Both the position numbers and the translations under genes were made by a program. Of a stretch of 35,224 nt of DNA, positions 1,386 through 23,685 are shown piece by piece. The DNA is from Roseibacillus sp. GTDB lineage: Bacteria; Verrucomicrobiota; Verrucomicrobiia; Verrucomicrobiales; Akkermansiaceae. The stretch is taken from positions 1 through 35,224 of the forward strand of contig PBLI01000073.1 in the NCBI GenBank assembly GCA_002721695.1, read 5' to 3'. The notes under the pieces were generated by a model. That model was given only the letters and a program-made list of their open reading frames with translations. It was not told the DNA's origin and did no database searches. How positions within the stretch are numbered: position 1 is the stretch's first letter; every line of letters begins with the position of its first letter.

Positions 1386-3083
1386 ATGAAACCGTTCGCT
1401 GTCCCGGTCCTGACCCTGCTTCTCGCCTCCTTAACCTCGGCCAAGCCGCCGAACATTGTCCTCATCATGGCGGATGACATGGGCTACTCGGACATCGGCT
1501 GCTATGGGGGAGAGATCAAGACCCCCGTGCTCGACCAGCTTGCCGCAAACGGCCTGCGCTACACCCAGTTTTACAATACGTCCCGCTGCTGCCCGACCCG
1601 GGCCGCCCTCATCTCCGGTCTATATTCCCACCAGACCGGGATGGGCCTGATGGAAGGTGACCGTGGCTGGCCCGCCTACCGGGGAGTCATCAACAAGCGC
1701 TGCGTGACCATTCCGGAGGCACTCAAGAGCGCGGGCTACCGCAGCTACATGTCGGGCAAGTGGCACCTCACCCGCCACAAGAGCCCGAACGGAGATACCT
1801 CCGCCTGGCCCATGCAACGGGGATTCGACCGGTTCTACGGGACCATCACGGGTGCCGGCAGCTTTTATGATCCCGCCACGCTGTGCCGCGGCAACACCTA
1901 CATCACGCCCGAAAACGACCCCGTGTATCAACCCGAGGCCTTCTATTACACCGACGCGATCAATGACAATGCGGTCGCCTTCATCGCCGATCACTGCGGG
2001 GACGATAAGGTGGCAGACAGGCCATTCTTTCTCTACGTCTCCCATACCAGTGCCCACTGGCCCATGCACGCTCCCGAAGCCGACATCGCAAAGTACCGGG
2101 GCGTCTACGACAAGGGCTATCCCGCCACCCGTGAGGCTCGCTACCGGAAGGCCATCGAAATGGGTGTCATCGACAAGAAGTGGCCCATGTCAAAGGGGCT
2201 CGATTGGGAGAACTTCCAGCACAAGGAATGGGACATCCGCTGCATGGAAGTCTACGCCGCCATGACCGAGGTCATGGACCGGGGCATCGGCCGGATTGTC
2301 AATGAGCTGAAGAAGCAGAAGCTCTTCGACAACACCCTGGTGATTTATCTGCAGGACAACGGGGGCTGCGCAGAGGGCTACGGACGGGCCAACAACTCCC
2401 ACCAGAAGGATCGCTTCAAGTTCAAGCCGCTGGGCAGGGATGGCCTCCAGACCAAGATCTGGCCACCGATGCAAACCCGTGACGGGCGTTTCGTCCGCAC
2501 GGGACCGGAAACCATGCCGGGAGCAGAGGACACCTTTGTCGCCTATGGCCCCGGATGGGCCAACGCTTCCAATACTCCCTTCCGCGGCTACAAGCACGAT
2601 CCCTACGAAGGGGGCATCGGCACCCCCTTCATCGTGAGCTGGCCCGAGGGTATCGAAAAGCAGCGCAATGGCTCAATCGTGCATGACGTGTCCCACCTCA
2701 TTGACCTCATGCCCACCTTCGTGGAACTGGGAGGCGCGACCTACCCGAAGCAATACGATGGCAACAGGATTCAGCCCATGGAGGGCGTCAGCCTCGCTCC
2801 AACCCTCTCCGGCAACTCCATCAAGCGGCAGGCCCCGCTCGGCTTCGAGCATCACGGCAACCTTGGACTGCGCGACGGCAAGTGGAAGATTGTCTCCATG
2901 TACCGCCGGGACCAGCCACGCAAATGGGAACTCTACGACATGGAGGCCGACCGGACGGAGCTCAATGATCTTTCGCAGAAAATGCCCGAGAAACTCAAGT
3001 CCATGGTTGCTGCCTGGCAGGCTTGGGCGGACCGGGTGGGCGTGCAGCCCTGGCCCATCCCCCGCTACACCGGAAAACGCTGA
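1386..3083 (+). CDS. secreted arylsulfatase (formylglycine-dependent, sulfatase family S1)
   Basis: A 565-residue sulfatase. Residues 1-19 form a signal peptide (hydrophobic core PVLTLLLASLTSA), so it acts in the periplasm or outside. The fold starts with NIVLIMADDMGYSD, where D30 and D31 are the expected calcium ligands. The active-site signature is C68-C-P-T-R72 followed by AALISG; C68 is the residue matured to formylglycine by a separate enzyme that is not in this window. A second metal-site segment, YLQDNGG, supplies D324 and N325. The protein ends with the usual sulfatase C-terminal subdomain (ELYDMEADRTELNDLSQKMPEK). Length is normal. It closely resembles the sulfatase at 25340-26902 around the active site (GCYGGEI, GLRYTQFYNT), so the two are probably paralogues. 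It lies 98 bases before a second sulfatase on the same strand. Substrate is unknown; sulfated polysaccharide is the likely class. Confidence 0.95.
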   Translation: MKPFAVPVLTLLLASLTSAKPPNIVLIMADDMGYSDIGCYGGEIKTPVLDQLAANGLRYTQFYNTSRCCPTRAALISGLYSHQTGMGLMEGDRGWPAYRGVINKRCVTIPEALKSAGYRSYMSGKWHLTRHKSPNGDTSAWPMQRGFDRFYGTITGAGSFYDPATLCRGNTYITPENDPVYQPEAFYYTDAINDNAVAFIADHCGDDKVADRPFFLYVSHTSAHWPMHAPEADIAKYRGVYDKGYPATREARYRKAIEMGVIDKKWPMSKGLDWENFQHKEWDIRCMEVYAAMTEVMDRGIGRIVNELKKQKLFDNTLVIYLQDNGGCAEGYGRANNSHQKDRFKFKPLGRDGLQTKIWPPMQTRDGRFVRTGPETMPGAEDTFVAYGPGWANASNTPFRGYKHDPYEGGIGTPFIVSWPEGIEKQRNGSIVHDVSHLIDLMPTFVELGGATYPKQYDGNRIQPMEGVSLAPTLSGNSIKRQAPLGFEHHGNLGLRDGKWKIVSMYRRDQPRKWELYDMEADRTELNDLSQKMPEKLKSMVAAWQAWADRVGVQPWPIPRYTGKR

Positions 3084-3181
3084 ACCCCGCCCGCATTCAG
3101 CTGGAACAGTGTCCACAATGCGCAGACCCGGGCAGGCCCGCGCTTCCCTTCATTTGTTACCCGCTGCCTGACAACCTCCCC

Positions 3182-4669
3182 ATGTATCTCTTCCTCATCC
3201 TCCTCGTCCCGCTCCTGCTGGTCCCGCTCCCGGCTACCAGCAAGCCTCACGTGCTCTTCATCGCAATCGATGACCTGAACGACTATATCTCGCCCCTGGA
3301 CAATCATCCCGGGGTCCAGACCCCTCACTTTGAACGTCTCGCCCGGACCTCGGTCAACTTCGCGAATGCCCACTGCGCCGCGCCGGTCTGCCACGCCTCG
3401 CGGGTCGCCGTCATGACAGGAGTCCACCCCACCCGCTCGGGAATCTACCGCAACATGTTCGGGGCCCGGGGTCCACGCTGGCGACACGAATCCAAGCTCC
3501 TTGAGAAGGCAGTCGTTCTCTCCCAGCACTTCCGCGACCACGGCTACCGGGCGGTCGGTGGTGGCAAGATCTTCCACACCCTCCAGTGGACGCCCCACGA
3601 TTCACAGAATGACCCGGAGGCCTGGGACGACTACCGGGGCGACCCGAACAACCCGATTGCTCCCGACTGGCCCCGGCCCAGACTGGTGCCCGACGAAAAG
3701 GCTGGCCTGACCAAGGGCCGGCCCCTCGGCGGGCACTCCCATCTCTTCGGGGCCGCCCCCTTGAACCTGCCCGACGAGCAAACGGGTGACCACATGGTGG
3801 TGGACTGGGCCCTTGAGCAGATGAAGGAGGCGAAAAAGGGCACCCCGCTCTTCCTCGCCGTCGGGCTCTTCCGCCCCCACATTCCCTGGGAGGTTCCCCA
3901 GCGGTGGTTTGACCTCTATCCGCTCGCCGGAGTGAACCTGCCCCCCCACCGCGAGGACGACCTCAACGACGCGCACCATCACGGCAGGACTCACTGGCAC
4001 AAGTGGGTCGTCGAGAACAAGCAGTGGGAGAAATTCATGCAGGGCTACCTGGCAAGCATCTCCTACGTCGACCACCAGCTCGGCCGCCTTCTCGATGGTC
4101 TCGAGGCCACTCCGGCCCTCAAGAACAACACGATCATCGTTCTCTGGAGCGACCACGGGTTTCACATCGGCGAAAAGGCCAACTGGGAAAAATTTGCCCT
4201 CTGGGACCAGACCACCCGGGTGCCCCTTTTCATCCACGCCCCGGGAGTAAGCCGCGATGGTGCCGAGACCCGTCAGCCGGCCACCCTCACCGACATCTAT
4301 CCCACCCTGTGTGAACTGGCCGCCATTCCCGTCCCCGAACAATGCGACGGCCTCTCCCTCGTCCCCCAGCTGAAAAGCCCCGAGCGCAAGCGTGGGCGCC
4401 TGGCGCTCTGCTCCTTCCAGTTCTGGAACGAAAACCGGCCCTCCCACGCAGTATCTGACGAACGCTACCGCTTCATCCGCTACGGAAACGGCTTCGAGGA
4501 ACTGTACGACCTGAAGGAAGACCCCCACGAATACGAGAACCTCATCGACGATCCCGGACTCGCGGCCGTCAAGATACGCCTGGCAGCCGGTGTGCCGGAA
4601 GATGCTGCCCCCATTGCCACCCTGCCCAAGGACTCACCCCATCACCGCGCCAACCAAGCACGTAAGTGA
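3182..4669 (+). CDS. secreted sulfatase of iduronate-2-sulfatase / choline-sulfatase type
   Basis: I chose the ATG at 3182 because it opens directly into a signal peptide (MYLFLILLVPLLLVPLPATS). The reading frame is open upstream to 3023, but that part looks non-coding. The mature part starts KPHVLFIAIDDLNDY, with D30/D31 as metal ligands. The nucleophile motif is C70-H-A-S-R74, so the usual proline is replaced by alanine; the (C)-x-(P/A)-x-R consensus allows this. Other family marks are GGGKIFH, LWSDHGFHIGEKANWEK (D324, H325) and the C-terminal ELYDLKEDPHEYENL. In this type, 2-O-sulfated uronic acids or similar esters are typical substrates, but bacterial members are diverse. Length is 495 residues. 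It lies between another sulfatase and a glycosidase, which suggests stepwise breakdown of a sulfated glycan. A formylglycine-generating enzyme would be needed from elsewhere in the genome. Confidence 0.93.
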   Translation: MYLFLILLVPLLLVPLPATSKPHVLFIAIDDLNDYISPLDNHPGVQTPHFERLARTSVNFANAHCAAPVCHASRVAVMTGVHPTRSGIYRNMFGARGPRWRHESKLLEKAVVLSQHFRDHGYRAVGGGKIFHTLQWTPHDSQNDPEAWDDYRGDPNNPIAPDWPRPRLVPDEKAGLTKGRPLGGHSHLFGAAPLNLPDEQTGDHMVVDWALEQMKEAKKGTPLFLAVGLFRPHIPWEVPQRWFDLYPLAGVNLPPHREDDLNDAHHHGRTHWHKWVVENKQWEKFMQGYLASISYVDHQLGRLLDGLEATPALKNNTIIVLWSDHGFHIGEKANWEKFALWDQTTRVPLFIHAPGVSRDGAETRQPATLTDIYPTLCELAAIPVPEQCDGLSLVPQLKSPERKRGRLALCSFQFWNENRPSHAVSDERYRFIRYGNGFEELYDLKEDPHEYENLIDDPGLAAVKIRLAAGVPEDAAPIATLPKDSPHHRANQARK

Positions 4670-4758
4670 CATGGGCTCCATGCGCCCGGGCGAAAAACCC
4701 TGAGGCCGGGAGCGCGCGTCCACGACGTGGGCCGAACATCCGGAACGCTTCCCCGAAC

Positions 4759-6057
4759 ATGAGGCTGCCAGTCAACACCCTGTTGCTCCTGTCTCTCCTC
4801 ACGTCCTTTTCCTCCACGCGGGGCGAGAAGGTCCTTGCTCCGTATGCGGGGCCGTCCCTTCCGGGAATCAACCGGTCCACCCTGAAGGGAAAACTCATGT
4901 GCGGCTATCAGGGATGGTTCGCCTGCCCCGGCGATGGCTCGAAGCTGGGCTGGGTGCACTGGGGCCGGGGGGCAAAGAGGACGCCCGGCCCCGGCAATGT
5001 CACCGTCGACCTCTGGCCGGACCTTTCGGAATATGGCCCCGGCGAGCGATTCAAAACAGCCTTCCTTCATGCCGATGGGCGACCTGCGGAGGTTTTCAGT
5101 TCCTACCGGAAAGAGACCGTCCTGCGCCACTTCCGCTGGATGGCGACCTACGGGATTGACGGGGCTTTCGTGCAACGCTTCGCCAACGGCCTGGCCTCCA
5201 CCCGCCTCCGCCACCATAAGGATGTCGTCCTCGCCAACTGCCGGGAAGGGGCTCATCGCCACGGTCGGGCATATGCCGTGATGTATGATCTCAGCGGCCT
5301 GCGCAGCGGGCAGGTCCAGCGGGTGATCGCTGACTGGAAGATGCTTCGCGCCGCGATGAAGCCTGGTCAGGACGAGGCCTATCTGCATCACCGGGGCAAG
5401 CCCCTGGTCGCAGTCTGGGGTATCGGGTTTGGCGATAACCGGGCCTACTCCCTCGCGGAATGCGCCTCCCTGGTCGAGTTCCTGAAGGCGGACGGCTGCA
5501 GCGTCATGCTGGGAGTGCCAAGTGGCTGGCGCAAACTCGACCGCGACGCCGCACCCGATCCCGCCCTGCACGAGGTCCTCCGCAATATCGACGTCCTCAG
5601 CCCCTGGAATGTTGGCCGCTACAAAAGCTCCCGCGTCCTTTCCGGTCATGTGAAAACAATCTGGAAACCAGACACCGCCTGGTGCGCCAGAAACGGGGTC
5701 GACTACCTCCCCACCGTCTTTCCCGGGTTCAGCTGGCACAACCTCCATGGAGGAACGCTGAATCAGATTCCCCGTCGCAGGGGAGCATTCCTGTGGTCAC
5801 AATTCGCAGCTGTCCGCGAGGTGGGAGCGCAAATGGTCTATGTCGCCATGTTCGACGAGGTTGACGAGGGAACGGCCATCTTCAAGTGCACCAATAATCC
5901 ACCAGCCGGCGAGGGAGTACGGTTCGCGAGCTACGAAGGACTGCCCAGCGACCACTATCTCTGGCTCTCGGGAATGGGCGCCCGGATGATTCGTGCAGAG
6001 CTTCCCTACACGACCACCATGCCTGTCCGCGGGAAGGAGGACACTCCCGGAAACTGA
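4759..6057 (+). CDS. secreted glycoside hydrolase family 99/71-like protein
   Basis: A 432-residue protein read from ATG 4759, which begins a signal peptide (MRLPVNTLLLLSLLTSFSS). A GTG at 4666 overlaps the previous stop codon but would add an unlikely N-terminal extension. Family marks of the bacterial GH99/GH71-like group run in order: KLMCGYQGWFACPGDGS near residue 45, VTVDLWPDLSEY, a segment placing the active barrel (YGIDGAFVQRF), AVMYDLSGL, GKPLVAVWGIGFGDNR, VMLGVPSGWRK, PTVFPGFSWHN and MVYVAMFDEVDEGTAIFKC. Characterised GH99 enzymes cleave alpha-1,2-mannosides internally, but this short bacterial group is often annotated only by fold and its substrate is not settled. Its place directly after two sulfatases suggests it cleaves a glycan exposed by desulfation. 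I am sure of the family and unsure of the bond it cleaves. Confidence 0.85.
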   Translation: MRLPVNTLLLLSLLTSFSSTRGEKVLAPYAGPSLPGINRSTLKGKLMCGYQGWFACPGDGSKLGWVHWGRGAKRTPGPGNVTVDLWPDLSEYGPGERFKTAFLHADGRPAEVFSSYRKETVLRHFRWMATYGIDGAFVQRFANGLASTRLRHHKDVVLANCREGAHRHGRAYAVMYDLSGLRSGQVQRVIADWKMLRAAMKPGQDEAYLHHRGKPLVAVWGIGFGDNRAYSLAECASLVEFLKADGCSVMLGVPSGWRKLDRDAAPDPALHEVLRNIDVLSPWNVGRYKSSRVLSGHVKTIWKPDTAWCARNGVDYLPTVFPGFSWHNLHGGTLNQIPRRRGAFLWSQFAAVREVGAQMVYVAMFDEVDEGTAIFKCTNNPPAGEGVRFASYEGLPSDHYLWLSGMGARMIRAELPYTTTMPVRGKEDTPGN

Positions 6058-6160
6058 GCGCGGCAAGTTCCCTTCCTGTCCCATCGGTCTCCGGGGTGAT
6101 GCGCTTCACCGCCGGGAGTCCCCGCATTGACAGCACGCAGGTGGGCATCCATCCTGTGCC

Positions 6161-7504
6161 ATGGCGGCGGCAGCGCGATTCGTGCTTTTTCTCCTGACCA
6201 CTGCAACCTTTCTGCAGGGAGAGTCGCTGGAACTGGATGGCAGGCTCGTGCGGTTCACCCCTGCACCTACCCCCGGCCAGGTGCGGCCCTACCCTCGCTG
6301 CCTTGCCACCTATCTTTACGAGGTAGAGAAGGTGCATCGTGGAGCCTTCAGGGGAAGGCAGATCGTCGTTGCCAAGTGGGCGGTCTGGAATCGGACCGCC
6401 CTGCCCGCACTCCCCTCCGAGGTGAATACCATCGAACGACTGAAACTTGACCGCTTCGTCGATCACCCCGGCCTGAAAACCAGCAGGATCGTGGACGGCA
6501 TTCGTGAACGGGAGCTCGTCCTCTACTACGACCCCTCTTCCCGGCCTCCTCCTGCGGTGGCCCGGGCCCTCACCCCGAAGACCGCGGAGCTGGCGAGCGG
6601 TGCGGTCGAGGGAGAGGCTCAAGGCTGGCTTTTCCTCGCGGACGAACTGGAGCATGCCCGCACGGGCCGCTTCTGGGAAAAGCCCTGGAAGGAGAGCTCC
6701 TGCGCCGGGGTGAGCCCCCTCCCGGCCCTGCTCGACGTCCAGAAGCGCCTGCGGGCCCTTGATGTCAACCTGCTCGTTGTCCCAGTGCCCACCAAGGTGA
6801 GCATCTACCCGGAACGCCTCGCGGAGGGACTGGAACGAAGCGAGGCCCCTACCGAGTACCTTCAGCTCCTCAGACACTCTGGCCTGCGCGTGCTCGACCT
6901 GCACCCCCTCTTCCGGGGCTACCGTGCCCACCCGGAACACGAGCTGCTCTACTGCGCGCAGGACTCGCACTGGACGCCACAGGCATGCCGGCTCGCGGCA
7001 CGCGCCATTTATCGAACGCTGGAAGGAGAAGATCCGCCTCTCCTTCAGGAACAGGACCTCCGCCCTGCAACGCGCCACATCCGGGGAGATCTCGCCCGCA
7101 TGCGCGCAGACCTCGCTCTCCCCCCGGAGCGCCTCTCCCTCGAGGAAGTGCGCTACCCGACCGGCCAGAACAGCCACGGCTATCATCACCCCGGGAGCGA
7201 CCTCGTCCTCCTCGGGGACAGCAACGTGGCGGTCTTCAGCGACCCCCTGGACGGCTTGCATGGTCCCGCCGCGGGCCTGCCGGACTACCTCAGCGCCTTC
7301 CGCGGCCGACCGGTGGACGTCATTGCCTCCTTCGGGGACGGCGTGCACCAGGCCCGCCTGAACCTCTACCGGGGGCGCTCCCGGAGCGAGGCTGGCTACT
7401 GGAAGAACAAGAGCTGGGTGGTGTGGTGCTTCTCCATGCGGGAGTTCACCCGGGCAGCGCAGTGGAGCACCAAGGTCCCGGTTGCACGAAGAAAAACTGA
7501 TTGA
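6161..7504 (+). CDS. secreted AlgX/AlgJ-like SGNH acetyltransferase with an N-terminal accessory domain
   Basis: A 447-residue protein starting at ATG 6161 with a signal peptide (residues 1-20). An accessory domain of about 90 residues (43-124, contains GRQIVVAKWAVWN) precedes the catalytic part. The SGNH-like acetyltransferase domain of the AlgX/AlgJ/DHHW group follows, with ADELEHARTGRFW, LLVVPVPTKVSIYP, the D268-S-H-W271 motif and a late G-D353-S354 motif, then WVVWCFSMREF. In alginate systems, AlgJ and AlgX use D-H on one motif and a serine on the other to pass acetyl groups to the polymer in the periplasm. Here it precedes an AlgI-type MBOAT gene by 133 bases, so it is likely part of the same acetyl-transfer system. 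The GDS motif comes after DSHW in sequence, which I take at face value as the family's order. The acetylated polymer is unknown. Confidence 0.85.
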   Translation: MAAAARFVLFLLTTATFLQGESLELDGRLVRFTPAPTPGQVRPYPRCLATYLYEVEKVHRGAFRGRQIVVAKWAVWNRTALPALPSEVNTIERLKLDRFVDHPGLKTSRIVDGIRERELVLYYDPSSRPPPAVARALTPKTAELASGAVEGEAQGWLFLADELEHARTGRFWEKPWKESSCAGVSPLPALLDVQKRLRALDVNLLVVPVPTKVSIYPERLAEGLERSEAPTEYLQLLRHSGLRVLDLHPLFRGYRAHPEHELLYCAQDSHWTPQACRLAARAIYRTLEGEDPPLLQEQDLRPATRHIRGDLARMRADLALPPERLSLEEVRYPTGQNSHGYHHPGSDLVLLGDSNVAVFSDPLDGLHGPAAGLPDYLSAFRGRPVDVIASFGDGVHQARLNLYRGRSRSEAGYWKNKSWVVWCFSMREFTRAAQWSTKVPVARRKTD

Positions 7505-7637
7505 GGGAGCCCCCCGAGGCCGCCCGCCCCCCGCAGCGAGAACTCTCCGCCCTCCGAGTCACATGGCCCGCAATAGGATCAATTCCCATATCAATCTCCG
7601 CTCAAGTACCCGATAACCCATCTCCCCATCATCTGGT

Positions 7638-9038
7638 TTGGTTTTCAGCACGCCCATCTTCCTCTATGGATTCCTGCCCCTCGTGCTGGTGGTCTACTAC
7701 CTGACCCCCCGGGCGGCACGCAACGGGTGGCTGGTCGTGGTGAGCTACTTTTTCTACGGCTGGGGCAATCCGCTGTATGTCTTTCTCCTCCTGTTCTCCA
7801 CCATCCTCGACTACTTCTGTGCGCTGGGAATGCAAAAGGGCGGAGCGAGAGCGCGACGCCTTCTCCTCCTCGCCTCCCTCGCGGGTAACCTGGGGATTCT
7901 CGCTTTCTTCAAGTATTCCGGATTTCTCGCCCGCACCGCCCACGAACTGTCCGGCATTCCGGGCGCGGAAACTTTGGCCTGGCTGGGATCGATCGCCCTT
8001 CCCCTCGGCATCAGCTTCTACACCTTCCAGTCCCTGAGCTACACCATCGACGTGTATCGGGGGGAGATCGAGCCCACCCGCCGTCTCGTGGACTTTGCCG
8101 CTTATGTGGCCCTCTTCCCCCAGCTCGTGGCCGGACCCATCGTCCGCTATGGGCAGCTCGCCAGCGCCCTGCACAGCCGCCGGGAGACACGGCGGCAGTT
8201 TACGGACGGCATGGGAATCTTCATCATCGGCCTCGCCAAGAAACTTCTGCTCGCCAACCCCTGCGGAGCAATCGCCGATCGAGCCTTCAGCGCAGCCGAG
8301 CTCGATGCCTTCGCGGCGTGGACCGGGCTCTTCGCCTATTCCTTCCAGATCTACTTCGACTTCAGCGGCTACAGCGAAATGGCGATCGGGCTGGGCATGA
8401 TGTTCGGCTTCAGCCTGCCGGTCAATTTCAGGGCCCCCTACCGTGCGGGATCTCTGCGGGAATTCTGGCGGCGCTGGCACATCACCCTTGGGTCCTGGGT
8501 TCGGGACTACCTCTACATCCCGCTCGGCGGAAGCCGGGGCAGCCGCCCACGCGCGCTGGGCAACCTTGTTCTGGTCATGCTCCTGGTCGGCCTCTGGCAC
8601 GGTGCCGCCTGGCAGTTTCTCGCGTGGGGAGCGATCCACGGAATACTCCTTGCTCTTGAACGCCTCGCGAGGCCCCTGGGACTGGGCCGGCGCCTTCCCC
8701 CCCTGCTCCGCGTTGCGCTGACCTTCTCCGCGGTCAGCCTCGCCTGGGTCGTTTTCCGGGCCGACTCACTCTCCGAGGCCGGACAATACTACGCCGCGCT
8801 CTTCGGTATTGCCGAGCACGGGGGGCCTGCCTGGTGGGCACGAGAGCTCCTGGTCAGCGGGGAGAGTATCCTTGTCCTCCTCGTCGCGGCTCTCGTTACC
8901 TGGGCCGGCCGGCCGGCCGCCGGGTTCGTCGAGGGCGCGGGCCGCGCGGGGTGGGCCATCCTCACAATCCTCTTCTGGCTCTCACTCGTCGCCATGGCAG
9001 CACAGGACGGAAACCCGTTCCTCTACTACTTCTTCTAG
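7638..9038 (+). CDS. AlgI/DltB-type MBOAT O-acyltransferase
   Basis: A polytopic membrane protein of 466 residues with many hydrophobic helices. The start is TTG at 7638. It gives MVFSTPIFLYGFLPLVLVV, which matches the conserved N terminus of AlgI proteins, and the first possible ATG would cut this off. Signature MBOAT segments are FPQLVAGPIVRY, FSFQIYFDFSGYSEMAIGL, FWRRWHITLGSWVRDYLY (H281) and GLWHGAAWQFLAWG. In the last, H321 corresponds to the essential histidine of the family (His322 in Pseudomonas AlgI). AlgI-type proteins move acyl groups from a cytoplasmic donor across the membrane to a periplasmic transferase. The stop is six bases before the next gene, which codes for an AlgJ-like partner, and another partner lies upstream. 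No classical ribosome binding site is visible. Confident in family; acceptor unknown. Confidence 0.95.
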   Translation: MVFSTPIFLYGFLPLVLVVYYLTPRAARNGWLVVVSYFFYGWGNPLYVFLLLFSTILDYFCALGMQKGGARARRLLLLASLAGNLGILAFFKYSGFLARTAHELSGIPGAETLAWLGSIALPLGISFYTFQSLSYTIDVYRGEIEPTRRLVDFAAYVALFPQLVAGPIVRYGQLASALHSRRETRRQFTDGMGIFIIGLAKKLLLANPCGAIADRAFSAAELDAFAAWTGLFAYSFQIYFDFSGYSEMAIGLGMMFGFSLPVNFRAPYRAGSLREFWRRWHITLGSWVRDYLYIPLGGSRGSRPRALGNLVLVMLLVGLWHGAAWQFLAWGAIHGILLALERLARPLGLGRRLPPLLRVALTFSAVSLAWVVFRADSLSEAGQYYAALFGIAEHGGPAWWARELLVSGESILVLLVAALVTWAGRPAAGFVEGAGRAGWAILTILFWLSLVAMAAQDGNPFLYYFF

Positions 9039-9044
9039 AGCCCC

Positions 9045-10505
9045 ATGCCTGATCAGGAACACAACGAACCCATCAGCCTGTCCAGGATGCCCTGCATTGT
9101 GGTCCTGGTCACCCTCGGGGTTCTCTCCACCATTCACCTCGGGACCTTTTTCCCGGATGGGTCGCTCTGGGACTGGGAGGACGGCGCCCTCGATCGCGCC
9201 TTCCTCGAGGCAGGAGCCCGGCATGTTCACGACCCGGTCCAGCTGCTGCGGGCAAGGGCAGGATTCGATGCCAACGATGTCGTTGAGCGGACTCACGAAC
9301 TCTACTACCAACCGGACATCGATCACCTCACCGGCCGGAACTTCCTCAGGCCCCCGGTCGCGCGCTCGCATGTCGTTCTTAGCAGCCCCCCTGACACGGA
9401 ACGAACATGGGACCCCCTCCCCGCCATCCTCGATTTCCACCAACAGCTGGCCGCAAGGGGAATCCGCCTCGTCGTCCTGCCCGTGCCCTCGAAGGCGGTC
9501 TTCGCCGATCCATCCCGCAAGCCCATCCTGAACGAGGGCTACCGGGAGTTTCTCGATCGCCTCCGCGCCTCCGGCGCTGAAATCCACGACCTCGTTCCTC
9601 TCTACGAGGAGATGCGCGCAGCCGGGAAGCGCCTTTTCCTGGAGGGCGACAGCCACTGGACACCGGAAGCAATGGCCCGGGCCGCCCGGGCGGTCGCAGC
9701 CACCACCTCGGTCCAGCCACCAGACGACCCCTATCCCGTCCTCGAACGCCAGCTCACCGCCTCCGGCGATCTCGCCCAGCTCCTCGGGCGCCCGTGGAAG
9801 GAAACCGTCCGCCAGAGAATGCTCCTCAGTCGCAACGATCTGCGCTGGAAGCCGGACCCGGAAGCGCCCTATCTCCTGCTGGGGGACAGCTTCTCAAATA
9901 TCTATTCCCTCGATGCCATGGGATGGGGCATCGCGGCCGGATTTGCGGAGGCGCTGAGCATAGAGCTGCGGGCCCCGGTTGATCGCATCAGCCGGAATGC
10001 GGATGGCGCCTTCGCCAGTCGCGAGGAGCTCCTCCGCAATCCACAGCGCCTCGCCAACAAATCGGTGGTTGTCTGGCAGTTCGCGATGCGGGAGCTCTCT
10101 TTCGGCGACTGGAAAGTGCTTCCTCTCAGCTCTCCGGAGCCCAGCTCAGCCAGCCGCCTCACCGACATGCCGGAGGAGCTGGAAGGGACCATCGCCAGGG
10201 TTGCGCCCATCCCCTCCCTCACCCGCACCCCCTACCGCCAGGCCATTCGGGAAGTCCTTCTCGAGAACGTTCGCAGTAGTTCGGGACTCGTTCCCGATCG
10301 GGTGGTCCTGCTGGGATATGCGGTTCAAAATCACCTGCCCACCGGCATGGCCCAATGGGAGCCGGGAGACCAAGTCCGCCTCCGGGTCATTTCCTGGGAA
10401 TCCGTCGAACCGAGCAAGGCACGTCTCCACCGCTTCGCCCTGCCCGATGACGAACTGGAGCTTCTTGAGGTTCCGTGGGCCTGGTGGGAGCCCCCCGGGA
10501 AATAG
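9045..10505 (+). CDS. membrane-anchored AlgJ-like SGNH acetyltransferase with a C-terminal accessory domain
   Basis: A 486-residue protein that starts six bases after the MBOAT gene, so the two are almost certainly co-transcribed. Residues 16-36 form a single transmembrane anchor. The SGNH/AlgJ-like domain has RLVVLPVPSKAVF near residue 141, G201-D202-S-H204-W205 and a later LLLG-D281-S282 motif, ending in SVVVWQFAMRELSFGDW. These are the residues expected of a periplasmic acetyl transferase paired with an AlgI protein. After the catalytic domain, residues 396-478 carry a segment (DRVVLLGYAVQN) that aligns with the N-terminal accessory domain of the SGNH protein at 6161-7504. The domain order is thus opposite in the two partners. 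The polymer that receives the acetyl groups is not indicated by any neighbouring gene. Confidence 0.85.
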   Translation: MPDQEHNEPISLSRMPCIVVLVTLGVLSTIHLGTFFPDGSLWDWEDGALDRAFLEAGARHVHDPVQLLRARAGFDANDVVERTHELYYQPDIDHLTGRNFLRPPVARSHVVLSSPPDTERTWDPLPAILDFHQQLAARGIRLVVLPVPSKAVFADPSRKPILNEGYREFLDRLRASGAEIHDLVPLYEEMRAAGKRLFLEGDSHWTPEAMARAARAVAATTSVQPPDDPYPVLERQLTASGDLAQLLGRPWKETVRQRMLLSRNDLRWKPDPEAPYLLLGDSFSNIYSLDAMGWGIAAGFAEALSIELRAPVDRISRNADGAFASREELLRNPQRLANKSVVVWQFAMRELSFGDWKVLPLSSPEPSSASRLTDMPEELEGTIARVAPIPSLTRTPYRQAIREVLLENVRSSSGLVPDRVVLLGYAVQNHLPTGMAQWEPGDQVRLRVISWESVEPSKARLHRFALPDDELELLEVPWAWWEPPGK

Positions 10506-10561
10506 CCGCCCCCTGCGGCCCCCCTTTCCCCGCCCCCCGCCGGATCACGGATGTATCACGA

Positions 10562-13300
10562 TCAAACCGGCGCCAAAAGCTGCCGCAAGGTCTCCTCGTC
10601 GGGCGCAGTGACCTTGTTTGTTCCGGCCAGGAGATCGTCAGCAAGCCTCGACTTGTCTGCCTGCAGTTTCTGGATGCGCTCCTCCACCGTGTTGCTGCAG
10701 ATGAGCTTGTGCACGAAGACCGGCTTGGTCTGCCCGATGCGGTAGGCCCGGTCGGTAGCTTGCGCCTCGGCCGCGGGGTTCCACCATGGGTCGTAGTGAA
10801 TCACAGTGTCGGCCGCGGTAAGGTTGAGCCCTGTCCCCCCCGCCTTGAGCGAGATGAGGAAGAGCGGTGTGGTGCCCTCCTGGAACTTCCTGACCAATGC
10901 CCCACGGTCGCGCGAGGAGCCAGTGAGCTGCAGGTAGGCAATGCCGAGTTCCTCCAGCTTTCTGCCGATGAGCTGGAGCATGGTCGTGAACTGGGAAAAC
11001 AAAAGCACCCGTCTTCCCTCCTCCCGCAGGGTGGCGAGCAGTTCCCCCAGATAGTCGAGCTTGGCGGAGGCAAGCCCGTGGGCTTCTTCCATCGCGAGAA
11101 GGCGGGGGTCGCAGCAGATCTGACGCAGCTTGAGGAGCGCGTCGAGAAAGACGATCCGGCTCTGCGCCAGCCCCTGGGCCGCAATCGCCTGGCGCACCCG
11201 TTTGTCCATGGTGGCGCGGACGGTCTCGTAGAGGTCCTTCTGTTCCACGGTAAGCTCCACCGGGTGGACGAGGATCGTCTTGGGCGGTAATTCCGAGGCC
11301 ACCTCGTCTTTCGTCCGGCGCAGGATGAGGGGAGCGAGGCGGCGCTTGAGATCCTCCTTGCGGTCTTCGTCCTCCCCCTTCTCGATCGGGGTCTGGAAGC
11401 GGGACCGAAAAGCTTCCCGCGAGCCCAGAAAACCCGGCAGGAGGAACCGCATGAGCGACCAGAGCTCTCCCAAATGGTTCTCAATGGGCGTCCCCGACAG
11501 GCACAGCCTATGCTTCGCCTTCAATTCGCAGGCCGCCTTGCTCACCTTGGCATCCGGGTTCTTGATGTTCTGGGCTTCGTCGATCACGACCAGGTGGAAT
11601 TCGCTCTCTTTCAGTGTCTCGATATCGCGCTGCAGCAGGGCGAAGGAGGTCACTACGAGGCTGGCGTAGGGAATGTTCCTGAAGTCCCGCTTCCGCTTCG
11701 GGCCCTGCAGGACCAGCACATTCAGGGAGGGGGCGAACTTCACCGCTTCCGCACGCCAATTGGGAACGACGGAGGTGGGCGCCACCACCAGGGCCGGCTT
11801 GCCTCCCGAGCGCCCCGAATCCTTCTCGTTGAGAATATGAGTGAGGGTTTGGAGGGTTTTGCCCAGGCCCATGTCATCGGCCAGGATCCCGTTGAGGTCG
11901 CAGGTGGCCAGGGACTGCATCCAGCGGAAGCCCTCCAGCTGGTAGTCCCGCAGGGTGGCCTGAATCCCCGGCGGAGGCTCCGCCCTCGCGGGCTTCCGGA
12001 GGGCACCCAGCTTCCCGGCCAGCCGGGCGAGGTTGGCCGGAGGATCAATCGCAAGATCGGAGTCAGCTGCCAGGCCGGCGGCGTCCACCGGATGCAGAAA
12101 AGGCCGGTGCGGGTCCACCAGGGCCGCCAACTGGCGCAGAATCCGACGCAAGCGATCCACGGGGATGCGCAGCGCACCTCCATCCGGAAGGTAGACCAGG
12201 TGGTGGGTCCGGTCCGGCAACTCGGCAAGCATGTCCATCGTTCCGTCCTCGAGCAGTTTCGCAAGGATGGGAAGCAGGTCCAGCCGCTGGCCATCGAGGT
12301 CAAAGCCCACCGAAAGTGCGAACCATCCCCCGGGCTGTTCCTCAAGCGAACTGTGCCAGTCTGCCGGTTCGCAGGGGTGGACCGGGAAGCCTATCTCCTC
12401 GTCGATCTCCACCCGCCAGCCCTGCGCCTCCAGCTTGGGCCCGGCCTCGGCCCGGAACCACGGCCAGTAGAGGTCCGGGGTACTCAGGCTGGGCTCGGGA
12501 AACCAGGCAAACTCAGCGGAGCTGGTCCGATCCTTGCTGCGCTCCAACCCAAGCAGGAACCGGTAACTGGGCTGGGCGCCGAGGTGTGTCAGTCCCAGCT
12601 GGGTCAATTGTCGGGCTGCATTCGTCTCGGCCTGCAAATCCCGCACGATCTCAAGGGAGCCCTGCACGGTCTCGATCACAACCGCGCTGTCGCCACTGGT
12701 ATGGAGGGGAAGTTCGTGGTCGCCGTACGACACGCTGGGCCGCGCCACGAGCCACTCATCACGGTTGGGAGCCCGCAAGGACTGCAGGAGAAGCTGGACC
12801 GGACGGCTGGTGGCGGGCTCGACGAGAACCTCCATGCGAAACTCCGGTGCACACTGCAGCCTACCGGCCGGGGGCGAGGTGGAGGGGCGGGACTTTTTCG
12901 CAGGCTCCACCCGGAGGCGGGCTCCTCCGCTCTTCAGGAGTCGCTCGAGTATTGTCTTTTTGCCTGCGGCAAACAGGATCGCCGCCGCGTGCTGGCAACA
13001 ATGCCCATAGGAGCAACTGCACCCGGCATCGAGTTCCCAGCGCCCCTCCTCCTCCTGCCAGAGCGAGAGCTCTACCTCGTAGCTCTCTTCCTCGAGGTCC
13101 CGCACCAAGGCGGTGAGGACCCCTCCCCCGTCCTCCTGCGGGCTCCACGCGAGGTCCGTGACCCGCCGCTTGCGCGCCAGCCTGCCCCCATCTTCAAGCA
13201 CGAAGTCGTCAAAGCGCGCCTGCCAGTCGCTGCCGAGCAGGAACTCACGGACGGTCGAAAAGGCAGGCATGAGCAGGGTCGGGGCGGCTGGCCGCAGCAT
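10562..13300 (-). CDS. SWIM zinc finger / SNF2-family DEAD-like helicase
   Basis: A large SNF2-type ATPase, about 912 residues from the chosen ATG at 13300. The frame is open to a TTG at 13378 that overlaps the stop of the upstream gene by a few bases, but those extra residues are Pro/Gly/Arg-rich and look non-coding. A further ATG lies at 13270. Near the N terminus is a SWIM zinc-binding motif (GCSCSYGHCCQH). The helicase core follows: Walker A ADDMGLGKTLQTL, VIDEAQNIKN (DEAQ form of motif II), LSGTPIENHLGELWSLMRFL, VLLFSQFTTML, and the arginine-finger region ATDRAYRIGQTKPVFVHKLI. Such bacterial proteins are thought to move along or remodel protein-DNA or RNA polymerase-DNA complexes (RapA/HepA-like), though the function of the SWIM subgroup is not well defined. 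It follows the aldo/keto reductase gene on the same strand. It is intact and of normal length. Confidence 0.93.
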   Translation of the reverse strand: MLRPAAPTLLMPAFSTVREFLLGSDWQARFDDFVLEDGGRLARKRRVTDLAWSPQEDGGGVLTALVRDLEEESYEVELSLWQEEEGRWELDAGCSCSYGHCCQHAAAILFAAGKKTILERLLKSGGARLRVEPAKKSRPSTSPPAGRLQCAPEFRMEVLVEPATSRPVQLLLQSLRAPNRDEWLVARPSVSYGDHELPLHTSGDSAVVIETVQGSLEIVRDLQAETNAARQLTQLGLTHLGAQPSYRFLLGLERSKDRTSSAEFAWFPEPSLSTPDLYWPWFRAEAGPKLEAQGWRVEIDEEIGFPVHPCEPADWHSSLEEQPGGWFALSVGFDLDGQRLDLLPILAKLLEDGTMDMLAELPDRTHHLVYLPDGGALRIPVDRLRRILRQLAALVDPHRPFLHPVDAAGLAADSDLAIDPPANLARLAGKLGALRKPARAEPPPGIQATLRDYQLEGFRWMQSLATCDLNGILADDMGLGKTLQTLTHILNEKDSGRSGGKPALVVAPTSVVPNWRAEAVKFAPSLNVLVLQGPKRKRDFRNIPYASLVVTSFALLQRDIETLKESEFHLVVIDEAQNIKNPDAKVSKAACELKAKHRLCLSGTPIENHLGELWSLMRFLLPGFLGSREAFRSRFQTPIEKGEDEDRKEDLKRRLAPLILRRTKDEVASELPPKTILVHPVELTVEQKDLYETVRATMDKRVRQAIAAQGLAQSRIVFLDALLKLRQICCDPRLLAMEEAHGLASAKLDYLGELLATLREEGRRVLLFSQFTTMLQLIGRKLEELGIAYLQLTGSSRDRGALVRKFQEGTTPLFLISLKAGGTGLNLTAADTVIHYDPWWNPAAEAQATDRAYRIGQTKPVFVHKLICSNTVEERIQKLQADKSRLADDLLAGTNKVTAPDEETLRQLLAPV

Positions 13301-13374
13301 GCCGTCATGGGCTCCCGGCATCAAGCGCGGGCCCGGGCGTCGGAGAAATCCCCCGCAGGGGGGGAGGAGGGGCC

Positions 13375-14373
13375 TCAATCGTAAATCGGGACGAAGGTGT
13401 TGAAGGCCTTCTCCCCGAATTCGCCCGGGTCGTTGAAGCGCCGGTGGCGATCAAGGGCATCGATGCGCGCCATTTCCTCGTCGCTCAAGGCGAAGTCATG
13501 AATTGCAAGGTTCTCCTGCAGGTGAGAGCGGCTCTGGGACTTCGGGATGGGTATCGTCCCCCGCTGCACCGCCCACCGCAGAGCCACCTGCGCCACACTC
13601 CGCCCGTGCACTGCTGCAACCCCGGCCATTACGGGATCCGCCAGCAGGCGCTCATCGCTCTCCGCCATCCCCAGGGAGAGATAGGAATCAGCGCCCAGGG
13701 GGGAAAACGCAGTGACCGCAATATCCTCTGCCTGGCAGTAACGCAGCATGCGCGACTGAGTGAGGTAGGGGTGCAGTTCGATCTGGTGGGCCACCGGCCT
13801 GATCGAACAGCTCGCCAGCACCTCGCGCAGGAGGGAAACCGTCAGGTTGCACACTCCGATGCGCTTTACCAAGCCCGCCCGCTGCAGCTCCTCCATCGCT
13901 CCCCATGTCTCGGTGTAGGGAACCGCAATCGGCTTCATGGTCGGCTCTCCGGCCGCCGGGTCAAACAGCCATTCCGGAGGATAGCGTTGCTCGAAGGGCA
14001 CAAAGGCAAGGGCGATCGGAAAATGAACCAGATAGAGGTCCAGCTCGTCCAGGCCGAGGTCCCGCAAGGTCCGTTCACAGGCCGCCCGGACGTGCTCTGG
14101 CTCGTGGTAGGTGTTCCAGAGCTTGGACGTGATCCACAAGTCCTCCCGCGTACAGAGCCCGTCCTCCATCGCCCGGCGCAAACCGGCCCCCACCTCCTCC
14201 TCGTTCCCGTAGTCGCAGGCACAGTCAAAGTGCCGGTATCCAAGAGCAATCGCAGTGTGCACCACACCCGGCACAATATCCCCGGAAATTTTCCACGTTC
14301 CCAGCCCCGGGCTGGGACACCCGCCTCCATCGGCCAGAAGCTGCACACCGGGGTCATCATTCAAATCAGACAT
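13375..14373 (-). CDS. aldo/keto reductase, D-xylose-reductase-like (AKR2 type)
   Basis: A 332-residue NAD(P)H-dependent carbonyl reductase with a (beta/alpha)8 barrel, expected in the cytoplasm. The start at 14373 gives MSDLNDDPGVQLLADGGG; the frame stays open upstream to 14646 but overlaps the divergent gene and has no family similarity. The full catalytic tetrad is present: D50, Y55, K84 and H117. The stretch YLVHFPIALAFVPFEQRYPP is the segment that marks yeast and plant-type xylose reductases, and RHRRFNDP near the C terminus also fits. Cofactor contacts are in IPIPKSQSRSHLQEN. The likely role is reduction of an aldose to an alditol, but the substrate is inferred only from similarity. It is divergent from the transglutaminase-like gene and upstream of the SNF2 gene. 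Confidence 0.92.
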   Translation of the reverse strand: MSDLNDDPGVQLLADGGGCPSPGLGTWKISGDIVPGVVHTAIALGYRHFDCACDYGNEEEVGAGLRRAMEDGLCTREDLWITSKLWNTYHEPEHVRAACERTLRDLGLDELDLYLVHFPIALAFVPFEQRYPPEWLFDPAAGEPTMKPIAVPYTETWGAMEELQRAGLVKRIGVCNLTVSLLREVLASCSIRPVAHQIELHPYLTQSRMLRYCQAEDIAVTAFSPLGADSYLSLGMAESDERLLADPVMAGVAAVHGRSVAQVALRWAVQRGTIPIPKSQSRSHLQENLAIHDFALSDEEMARIDALDRHRRFNDPGEFGEKAFNTFVPIYD

Positions 14374-19902: not shown

Positions 19903-20460
19903 ATGGGACCGCTTCTGATCATCGTGGGCATCACGCTGGGGATTACCCTCCTTCTCCTGGCCCTCATGTACAACGGCTTCGTGAGCAGGCGCAACCGGAT
20001 GCGCAACGCCTTCGCCTCCATCGACGTTCAGCTCAAGAAGCGCTGGGATCTCGTTCCTCAAGTGGTTGAGGCCGTGCGGGCTTACGCCTCTCACGAGAAA
20101 GGGGTGTTTGAGAACGTGACGCGCGCCCGGCGCGGCATCGAGGCCGTGGAGGCGGACAGCCCGGAACGCTTCGACTACGAGCAGGATCTCGGGGCTGGAC
20201 TATCGCGCGTGATGTTGCTGGCGGAAGATTATCCCGATTTGAAGGCGGGGGAGCAGTTCCTCAACCTGCAGCGGAACCTGACCGAAGTGGAATCGCAGAT
20301 CGCGGCGGCGCGACGGGCCTTTAATGCGACGGTCACGGCATGGAACGAGGGGGTCGAAATGTTCCCGGGAAGCGTGATGGCGGGAATCTGCGGGTTCCAG
20401 GTGCAGAGCTGGTTTGAAACCCCCGAGAGCCAACGCAAGGTGACGGATGTCCAGGTCTGA
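19903..20460 (+). CDS. lemA: LemA family protein
   Basis: A 185-residue protein with one N-terminal membrane helix (residues 3-23, PLLIIVGITLGITLLLLAL). The LemA hallmark follows: YNGFVSRRNRMRNAFASIDVQLKKRWDLVPQ with the RR/KR and LKKRxDLVP positions, then a long helical cytoplasmic or periplasmic part. The biochemical role of LemA proteins is not firmly known; they are linked to envelope stress and antigen processing in some bacteria. The last 14 bases overlap the next gene, which codes for a DUF3137 protein. LemA with a partner membrane protein of this type is a recurring pair, so the two probably form a complex. The AT-rich stretch 19875-19895 just upstream could hold the promoter, but I see no clean -35/-10 pair. 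Confidence 0.93.
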   Translation: MGPLLIIVGITLGITLLLLALMYNGFVSRRNRMRNAFASIDVQLKKRWDLVPQVVEAVRAYASHEKGVFENVTRARRGIEAVEADSPERFDYEQDLGAGLSRVMLLAEDYPDLKAGEQFLNLQRNLTEVESQIAAARRAFNATVTAWNEGVEMFPGSVMAGICGFQVQSWFETPESQRKVTDVQV

Positions 20461-21522: not shown

Positions 21523-23685
21523 ATTACCAGATGCGCGGCAGTCATCGGGAGCCTTCTGCCCCTCGTTTCAATAGCGGGTCCCGGGACGGCAGACCTGGAA
21601 GAGCAGGGCCATTGGGCCTGGAGCAAACTGGTGCAGCCCGCCCTGCCTGGGGCGGACGTTGGGCGAACGCGCACGGCCGTGGATCATTTCACTTTCGCGC
21701 GAATGGCGGAGAAAGGTGTCCAGCCCGCGCAGGAGGCCGATCCGAGGAAGCTTCTGCGTAGGATCCACCTCGACCTGACTGGTCTGCCCCCCTCTCCCGC
21801 GGAGATCGAGGCGTTCCTCCGTGACCCCGGGGATGCTGCCTACGCCCGGGTGGTGGATGACCTCCTCGCCCGCCCGCAGTATGGCGAACGCTGGGGCAGG
21901 CACTGGCTCGACGTGGTGCGATACGCCGAGACCAAAGGATACGAGCGCGACGAGTATAAGAAGTTCGTCTGGCGCTACCGGGACTACGTCATCGATTCCT
22001 TCAACAAGGACAAGCCCTACGACCAGTTTATTCATGAGCAACTTGCGGGCGATGAACTGGACCAGATTACGCTGGAGTCGCAGCTGGCGACCACCTTCCT
22101 GGCCCTCGGGACCTTTGATACCATCGCGGCCGACCGGGAGGTTGCTGTCTACGACACCCTCGACGACATCGTGGCCACGACCTCCATGGCCTTCCTCGGC
22201 CAGACGCTGCAGTGCGCCCGCTGCCACGACCACAAGTTTGAGCCCTTCAGCCAGGAGGATTATTACCGTGTCCTGGCCGCCTTTGAGCCGTTGAATGTCA
22301 CCGGCCGGGAGCGGCAGGTCGGGACCACGCAGGACCGGGAGCAGCATCAGCAGGCGGCAGATAACTACCTCCGGGAAATCCTGGAGCCGCGGCGCAGGAC
22401 GGAGGAGCGCTTCTGGTTGCCAATTTTGCAGCGGTGGTCACGGGAGGGCCTGCCAAAGGGCCGAAAGGCCCAGCTCAACGGAAAGCAGCTCAAGCTCACG
22501 ATCGAGGCCATTCCGCTGGCCCCGGACAAGCGCTCCCAGGAGCAGCGCCACATGCTGGAAAAGGAGCGTAACCGCGTGCGGGCTGCAGTTCGTGAAGTCG
22601 CTACGGAGGACGAGCGTCGCAAGATCGCCGCCCACGAACAGGAACTGAAAAACGCGGAGAAGGAAAAACCCCAGCCCATGATGGGCTGGGTCTATCCCGG
22701 CACCGCCCAGCCGAAGCCGACCCTCCTGCGCATCCGCGGGGACGTCCACCAGAGGGGAAAGGAAATCCCTTTCGGAATACCTGTCGTCCTGGATACGGGC
22801 GACTTGCCGGAACCGCGGCCGACCGCGCAATCCTCGGGCCGCCGGCGGGCCCTTGCCGAATGGATCACGGGGCCGCAGGGCCCGCTTGCGGCCCGGGTCA
22901 TGGCCAACCGGGTGTGGCAGTATCACTTCGGCCGGGGCCTCGTGGATGATGGCAACAATCTGGGGGTCGAGGGGGGGGCGCCCACGCACCCAGCGCTGCT
23001 GGACTGGCTGGCAGATTCCCTCGTCCGGGGCGGGTGGAAGCTGAAACCCCTCCACCGCCAGATCGTGCTTTCTTCCACCTATCGCCTTTCGGCCATGCAT
23101 CCGGAGCCGGCGAAGGATCCTGACAACGAGCTCTATTCCCGGTGGCCTCTTCACCGGTTGGAGGCCGAGGCTATCCGGGACTCCGTGCTGGCAGCCAGTG
23201 GCAGACTCAATCTTGAGATGAAGGGCCCCCCCATCTACCCGCCCTTTGCGGACAAGGTTGTTGGCGCGTCCTCGGGAGCAGACTGGAAGAATTCCACCGA
23301 GGAGGAGGCCTCGCGGCGCAGTGTCTACGTCTTCGCGAAGCGCGCCATCCCATTGCCGGAACTGGCCGTCCTCGACAACCCGGACTCCTCCGGCAGCTGC
23401 GCCAAGCGCTCCGTGTCCACTACCGCGGTGCAGTCCCTGCTCATGATGAACGGGCGTTTCATCAATGAGCAGACCGTCCACCTGGCAAAACGCCTGCGGG
23501 AGCTCGAGGGAGAAGAGAACCAGGTCCGGGCCGCTTTTGACCTCATCCTCTGCCGACCCCCGACCACCCGGGAAGTGGAGCAGGCCCGCACCTTCCTCGT
23601 GAAGGCCACCCGCGAGCAGAATATCGACCCGCTCGCCTCGCTGGCCCTCGTGCTCTTCAATACCAACGAGTTCAGCTACCGCTAG
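21523..23685 (+). CDS. PSCyt2/PSD1 (DUF1549-DUF1553) protein without a conventional start codon
   Basis: The family match is unmistakable: RRIHLDLTGLPPSPAEIEAF, YGERWGRHWLDVVRYAET, CARCHDHKFEPFSQEDYY (a CxxCH heme-c-like motif), then the PSD1 half with ANRVWQYHFGRGLVDDGNNL and LHRQIVLSSTYRLSAMHPEP. The first conventional start, GTG 21631, would lose both the family's HWAW...PALP segment and a signal peptide that are in frame just upstream (AAVIGSLLPLVSIAG, then GHWAWSKLVQPALP). The in-frame stop is at 21505, and between it and 21631 there is no ATG, GTG or TTG. ATT 21523 (used here) and ATC 21511 are candidate unusual starts. Alternatively ATG 21531 is the true start, with a one-base frameshift before 21541. 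The protein has about 720 residues and no separate N-terminal cytochrome domain. It is followed by a DUF1501 gene after five bases. The role is undefined; the pair is often tied to glycan use in PVC bacteria. Confidence 0.85.
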   Translation: MTRCAAVIGSLLPLVSIAGPGTADLEEQGHWAWSKLVQPALPGADVGRTRTAVDHFTFARMAEKGVQPAQEADPRKLLRRIHLDLTGLPPSPAEIEAFLRDPGDAAYARVVDDLLARPQYGERWGRHWLDVVRYAETKGYERDEYKKFVWRYRDYVIDSFNKDKPYDQFIHEQLAGDELDQITLESQLATTFLALGTFDTIAADREVAVYDTLDDIVATTSMAFLGQTLQCARCHDHKFEPFSQEDYYRVLAAFEPLNVTGRERQVGTTQDREQHQQAADNYLREILEPRRRTEERFWLPILQRWSREGLPKGRKAQLNGKQLKLTIEAIPLAPDKRSQEQRHMLEKERNRVRAAVREVATEDERRKIAAHEQELKNAEKEKPQPMMGWVYPGTAQPKPTLLRIRGDVHQRGKEIPFGIPVVLDTGDLPEPRPTAQSSGRRRALAEWITGPQGPLAARVMANRVWQYHFGRGLVDDGNNLGVEGGAPTHPALLDWLADSLVRGGWKLKPLHRQIVLSSTYRLSAMHPEPAKDPDNELYSRWPLHRLEAEAIRDSVLAASGRLNLEMKGPPIYPPFADKVVGASSGADWKNSTEEEASRRSVYVFAKRAIPLPELAVLDNPDSSGSCAKRSVSTTAVQSLLMMNGRFINEQTVHLAKRLRELEGEENQVRAAFDLILCRPPTTREVEQARTFLVKATREQNIDPLASLALVLFNTNEFSYR

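Follow-up and report, generated by a model that had tools for sequence, protein, structure and literature searches.

A predicted OB-like accessory domain on both SGNH enzymes of a putative MBOAT O-acylation cluster in a Roseibacillus-like bacterium

Two SGNH enzymes encoded beside an MBOAT gene in a 35,224-nucleotide stretch of Roseibacillus sp. DNA (hereafter the window) each carry a copy of one accessory domain, and profile comparisons identify residues 21–126 of the first enzyme, P1, and residues 375–479 of the second, P2, as homologous. We think it rather probable that this domain is an accessory module of MBOAT O-acyltransferase systems with two SGNH proteins, that the P1 copy was fused from a third protein, and that the module contacts a glycan or a partner protein.

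The cluster comprises three genes on the forward strand, with P1 and P2 on either side of the MBOAT gene. P1 (6161..7504, 447 amino acids) starts with a stretch that looks hydrophobic and signal-like by inspection, followed by the accessory domain (6221..6538), a member of the third-protein or "O" subfamily, and then by an SGNH/AlgX-like acyltransferase domain (6620..7369), which matches Pfam family PF16822 over residues 154–403 (E = 1.5e-21; 77.7 bits, cut-off 26.5) and contains D268/H270 and the GDS serine S354. The AlgI/DltB-like MBOAT acyltransferase (7638..9038, 466 amino acids) matches PF03062 (E = 1.3e-33; 117.1 bits, cut-off 27) and scores below the cut-off of the DltB model TIGR04091. 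P2 (9045..10505, 486 amino acids) has what appears by inspection to be a hydrophobic N-terminal anchor, an SGNH domain (9414..10085; PF16822 over residues 124–347, E = 2.6e-24, 86.8 bits, cut-off 26.5) and, at its C-terminus, an accessory domain of the P2 subfamily (10167..10481). Both SGNH domains retain the D-x-H and GDS catalytic motifs, and those of P2 (D202/H204 and S282) occupy invariant or near-invariant columns of alignment A1. Judging from family matches and motifs, P1 and P2 are probably SGNH acyltransferases of the AlgX/AlgJ type, with putative activity in polymer acylation.

Genes for alginate polymerization or export were not found among the flanking genes scanned with Pfam, which encode a lactonase, two sulfatases, an SNF2 helicase, an aldo/keto reductase, PSD1/PSCyt2 and four products without a Pfam match. 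The two sulfatase genes (PF00884) are consecutive and lie upstream of the cluster at 1386–4669, together with a following gene for a 463-residue protein lacking a Pfam match, and the PSCyt2/PSD1 (DUF1549/DUF1553) protein is encoded at 21631–23685. A second copy of window positions 2181–14206, 99.47% identical over at least 12 kb, is present at 20000–32000 of contig C54 of genome G000 (locus L064); strain redundancy in the bin, whose contamination is 5.5%, is a likelier source of it than a true duplication.

Taken from the two sequences alone, the similarity of the accessory domains is marginal. BLASTP of P1 against P2 gave E = 0.027 over 65 amino acids, and the exact segments named in the preliminary description gave shuffle fractions of 0.25 (local) and 0.006 (global), with 0.008 for longer segments. 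Relatives were drawn from named public genomes and from genomes that share the genus, order or class of the window. A profile of P1 copies only (4 sequences) matched one of P2 copies only (29 sequences) in hhalign with probability 91.5 and E = 8.7e-7 over 80 columns. The P1 profile matched the third-protein group at E = 4.3e-28 over 107 columns, and the third-protein group in turn matched the P2 profile at E = 1.9e-13. Single-sequence searches with either domain as query reached the same region of the same two proteins (at loci L103 and L082), and iterative HMM searches seeded with P1 or with P2 converged on the same set of about 57 domains, with E values from about 1e-13 to 1e-32 and one member at only 6e-4 from the P2 seed; reversed-sequence controls gave nothing better than E = 2.9. 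In hmmsearch the P1 domain matched the O-type profile at E = 1.3e-23, and the P2 domain matched profile A4, of which the window copy is itself a member, at E = 1.7e-28. The proposal of the preliminary description that a shared segment precedes the SGNH domain in P1 and follows it in P2 is thus borne out by the profile matches and the converging searches. Its segments were rightly placed, but the domain already begins at residue 21 of P1 and residue 375 of P2, about 20 residues earlier, and these added residues include an "ELxGxxxRxxPxP" stretch common to both copies. Its pairing of RERELVLYY with DDELELLEV falls outside the P1–P2 profile alignment, which makes this boundary the less certain one.

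No Pfam or NCBIfam family above cut-off covers the accessory domain, in agreement with the original remark that no named domain was known for it. Scans of its members with both libraries returned scattered sub-threshold matches only, including weak OB-fold hints (PF01336 and PF18614) to which we gave no weight by themselves, and comparison of the domain profiles with the sequences of solved structures gave nothing significant. AlphaFold2 models of the two isolated domains, built from separate alignments of the window copies with sequences from related loci, reached pLDDT 90.3 and pTM 0.83 for P1 and pLDDT 84.1 and pTM 0.77 for P2. The two models agree in the succession of their strands and helices. 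When both models were compared with the PDB by Foldseek, the matches were mainly OB-folds (LysRS, SSB, PriB and RPA), all of them weak (best E 0.066 and 0.24 for the two models, TM mostly about 0.3–0.5); the top matches of the P1 model include, also weakly, the netrin-like domains of agrin (NtA), complement C3 (NTR) and TIMP. We therefore predict an OB-like (NTR/TIMP-like) barrel of about 100 residues, a prediction because the Foldseek matches are weak, and a class assignment based on the models and the consistency of the match list. The likeness to OB-fold and NTR (netrin, TIMP) domains lies in predicted strand order and in these match lists, whereas Pfam OB/NTR models and solved chains have no significant sequence match to the accessory domain. 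Literature searches, with most subscription journals outside their scope, found no paper describing the domain, nor one on SGNH with an OB-fold or on NTR with polysaccharide. The domain is uncatalogued in the libraries searched, and it is an accessory domain of a known, MBOAT–SGNH kind of acyltransferase.

The same domain is fused elsewhere, on P2 C-termini and on third proteins across many phyla, as the preliminary description had led one to look for. The collected clusters contain 181 copies, of which 118 follow the SGNH domain of P2-type proteins and most others belong to a third protein encoded near the MBOAT gene. P2-type relatives occur, among others, in Verrucomicrobia, Planctomycetes, Kiritimatiellae, Lentisphaerae, Desulfobacterota, Thioalkalivibrio, Poribacteria and Vicinamibacterales. 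Third proteins carry PD40-propeller and LamG, malectin, SGNH/DUF459 or FHA domains, and the accessory domain is usually terminal in them. P1 is normally bare in related clusters; exceptions come from the window genus (Roseibacillus-like, of the Akkermansiaceae, to judge by the nearest named records) and from a single further genome of that family (L080). The usual plan consists of a third protein with the domain at its end, an MBOAT, a P2 with SGNH followed by the domain, and a P1 with SGNH alone.

Domains of the third-protein type were found in 31 of 289 genomes sampled from the phylum, some of them with no MBOAT gene within the roughly 8 kb of flank read, and the order of accessory domain followed by SGNH recurs in other families (L235, L236, L244, L199, L172 and L182). 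Since the domain is found both away from MBOAT genes and ahead of other SGNH-like domains, it may serve a more general role. Two of these loci (L235, 6894–9630; L236, 5873–8691) encode tandem pairs of proteins of about 450 amino acids in which the accessory domain lies close to the N-terminus and is followed by an apparent SGNH-like part (a GNSH motif by eye); no MBOAT is encoded nearby. Elsewhere, a single protein (L104, 1001–3625) consists of SGNH2, then the accessory domain, then SGNH1; judged by length, a protein at L253 (3708–6599) and the P2 proteins of L157, L160, L179, L196 and L199, at 880–964 amino acids, look like the same P2–P1 fusion.

Among known systems, the closest in layout is alginate O-acetylation in Pseudomonas aeruginosa. 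AlgX consists of an SGNH domain with catalytic S269, D174 and H176 and a C-terminal carbohydrate-binding module proposed to hold the glycan chain, and it acts together with an MBOAT and with AlgJ, a second SGNH protein described as lacking such a module and as not binding mannuronate oligomers (PMC4148444). By analogy, the layout of P2, with the accessory domain after the SGNH domain, recalls AlgX, and a bare P1 recalls AlgJ; AlgX shares with the window a PF16822 SGNH domain with D-x-H and GDS motifs, a C-terminal accessory domain (in P2) and an MBOAT with a second SGNH protein, but in the window P1 also carries an accessory domain, at its N-terminus. No match of the accessory domain to the AlgX C-terminal module was found: the sequence match to solved AlgX chains ends within the SGNH part and leaves the accessory domain uncovered, and AlgX is absent among the 50 Foldseek matches listed for each accessory domain. 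The AlgJ/AlgI, PatA–PatB and WssH–WssI systems likewise have an MBOAT adjoining an SGNH acyltransferase, whereas the present clusters encode a pair of SGNH proteins together with OB-like domains and, in many cases, a third protein of the propeller/LamG type.

In our working model, the MBOAT would pass acyl groups across the membrane, and the SGNH enzymes would take them up as acyl-serine intermediates and deliver them to an envelope glycan. The OB-like domain beside each SGNH domain would hold the glycan chain or position a partner, in the manner proposed for the C-terminal module of AlgX. The cluster probably acetylates a surface sugar polymer, with both the acyl group and the polymer as putative assignments, and the best reading of the accessory module, by analogy, is that it gives each SGNH enzyme a putative contact with the polymer or with a partner. 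The preliminary description had suggested, as a possibility, a docking or polymer-binding unit for the MBOAT; no observation singles out the MBOAT as the contact.

OB/NTR-like folds (NTR, TIMP, C345C) are often protein-binding, and the domain could instead be a docking unit, without polymer contact, that holds the SGNH enzymes, the MBOAT and the third protein in one complex. The NTR-type matches of the P1 model fit this alternative, as do its presence on two or even three proteins within a cluster and the fusion to P1, in the window, of a domain that the third protein otherwise provides in trans. We nevertheless regard it as the less probable reading, since the domain is also found on proteins without an MBOAT in the flank read, which makes docking to the MBOAT alone less likely than a general role, and since LamG- and malectin-bearing proteins, suggestive of sugar contact, are among them.

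Our preferred reading, an accessory module with glycan or partner contact, also includes the origin of the P1 copy. In a tree of 108 domain rows, the four fused-P1 copies fall within the third-protein clade, and the third-protein subfamily (64 rows, P1 copies included) is split from all P2 copies by a branch with 100/100 support. The preliminary description had suggested domain shuffling between the two partners. Homology of the two copies and their presence in one operon-like cluster would suit such a direct exchange, but we hold it to be very improbable: the copies belong to the different subfamilies just described, a joint clade of P1 copies and window-genus (Roseibacillus-type) P2 copies is rejected under the model used (AU p = 0.0008), and the P1 copy matches third-protein copies far better than P2 copies in the hhalign comparisons above. 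Least credible of all, at a level we treat as negligible, is a chance resemblance of two unrelated segments, for which the weak pairwise alignment and the local shuffle fraction might speak, but against which stand matching independent profiles, transitive matches to one region of two further proteins, converging searches with clean reversed controls and agreeing predicted structures.

A source in the neighbouring third gene is suggested by gene order as well. In the P1 SGNH tree, the fused P1 proteins fall in a 12-row Verrucomicrobiales set (96* support), which also includes P1 genes directly downstream of a third-protein gene (L090, L091, L095 and L096). These four loci have no MBOAT gene within the 13–15 kb read, with MBOAT homologues elsewhere in the same genomes, and the third gene and P1 therefore travel as a pair. 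Where a distinct locus has both P1 and the third gene, the latter adjoins P1 on the same strand in 20 cases, adjoins the MBOAT gene in 15 and lies elsewhere in 8. No fused-P1 locus contains a separate third-protein gene. Of the genomes of the window genus that were tested, only the three with P1 (G000, G008 and G009) have O-type domains, always fused to it, and those without P1 also lack any third-protein-type domain. The LamG, malectin and PD40-propeller third proteins of related clusters end in the domain subfamily of the window P1, whereas the window keeps only that domain, fused to an SGNH enzyme. Most likely, then, the P1 copy came from the neighbouring third gene, whose last domain became joined to the P1 N-terminus in the window lineage while the rest of the third protein was lost, so that each SGNH enzyme would now have its own copy. 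We infer this history from present-day arrangements in four distinct fused cases, which form a long branch whose sister is not fixed within the third-protein clade.

Some window-genus genomes have P2 and a close MBOAT without P1, and P1 is therefore not always needed. Six window-genus loci (L071–L076) hold P2-type genes with no MBOAT or P1 nearby; a more distant MBOAT is encoded elsewhere in four of the six genomes and none in two (G007 and G013).

A broader proposal, to which we give slightly less than even credence, is that the OB/NTR-like family is dedicated to coupling within a widespread acylation system of four components (third protein, MBOAT and two SGNH enzymes), with one copy per SGNH step; the fused P1 would then be a "Rosetta stone" indicating that the third protein works with P1.

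These clusters represent a separate, phylum-spanning family of two-SGNH systems in which each SGNH enzyme seems to own an accessory domain, either in cis or from a neighbouring protein. They bear on the question of why two active SGNH O-acetyltransferases are needed in alginate acetylation, which has been described as unclear (PMC4148444). The fused P1 offers a compact, testable construct, and the accessory domain is a marker by which such systems can be sought in sequence data from outside Proteobacteria.
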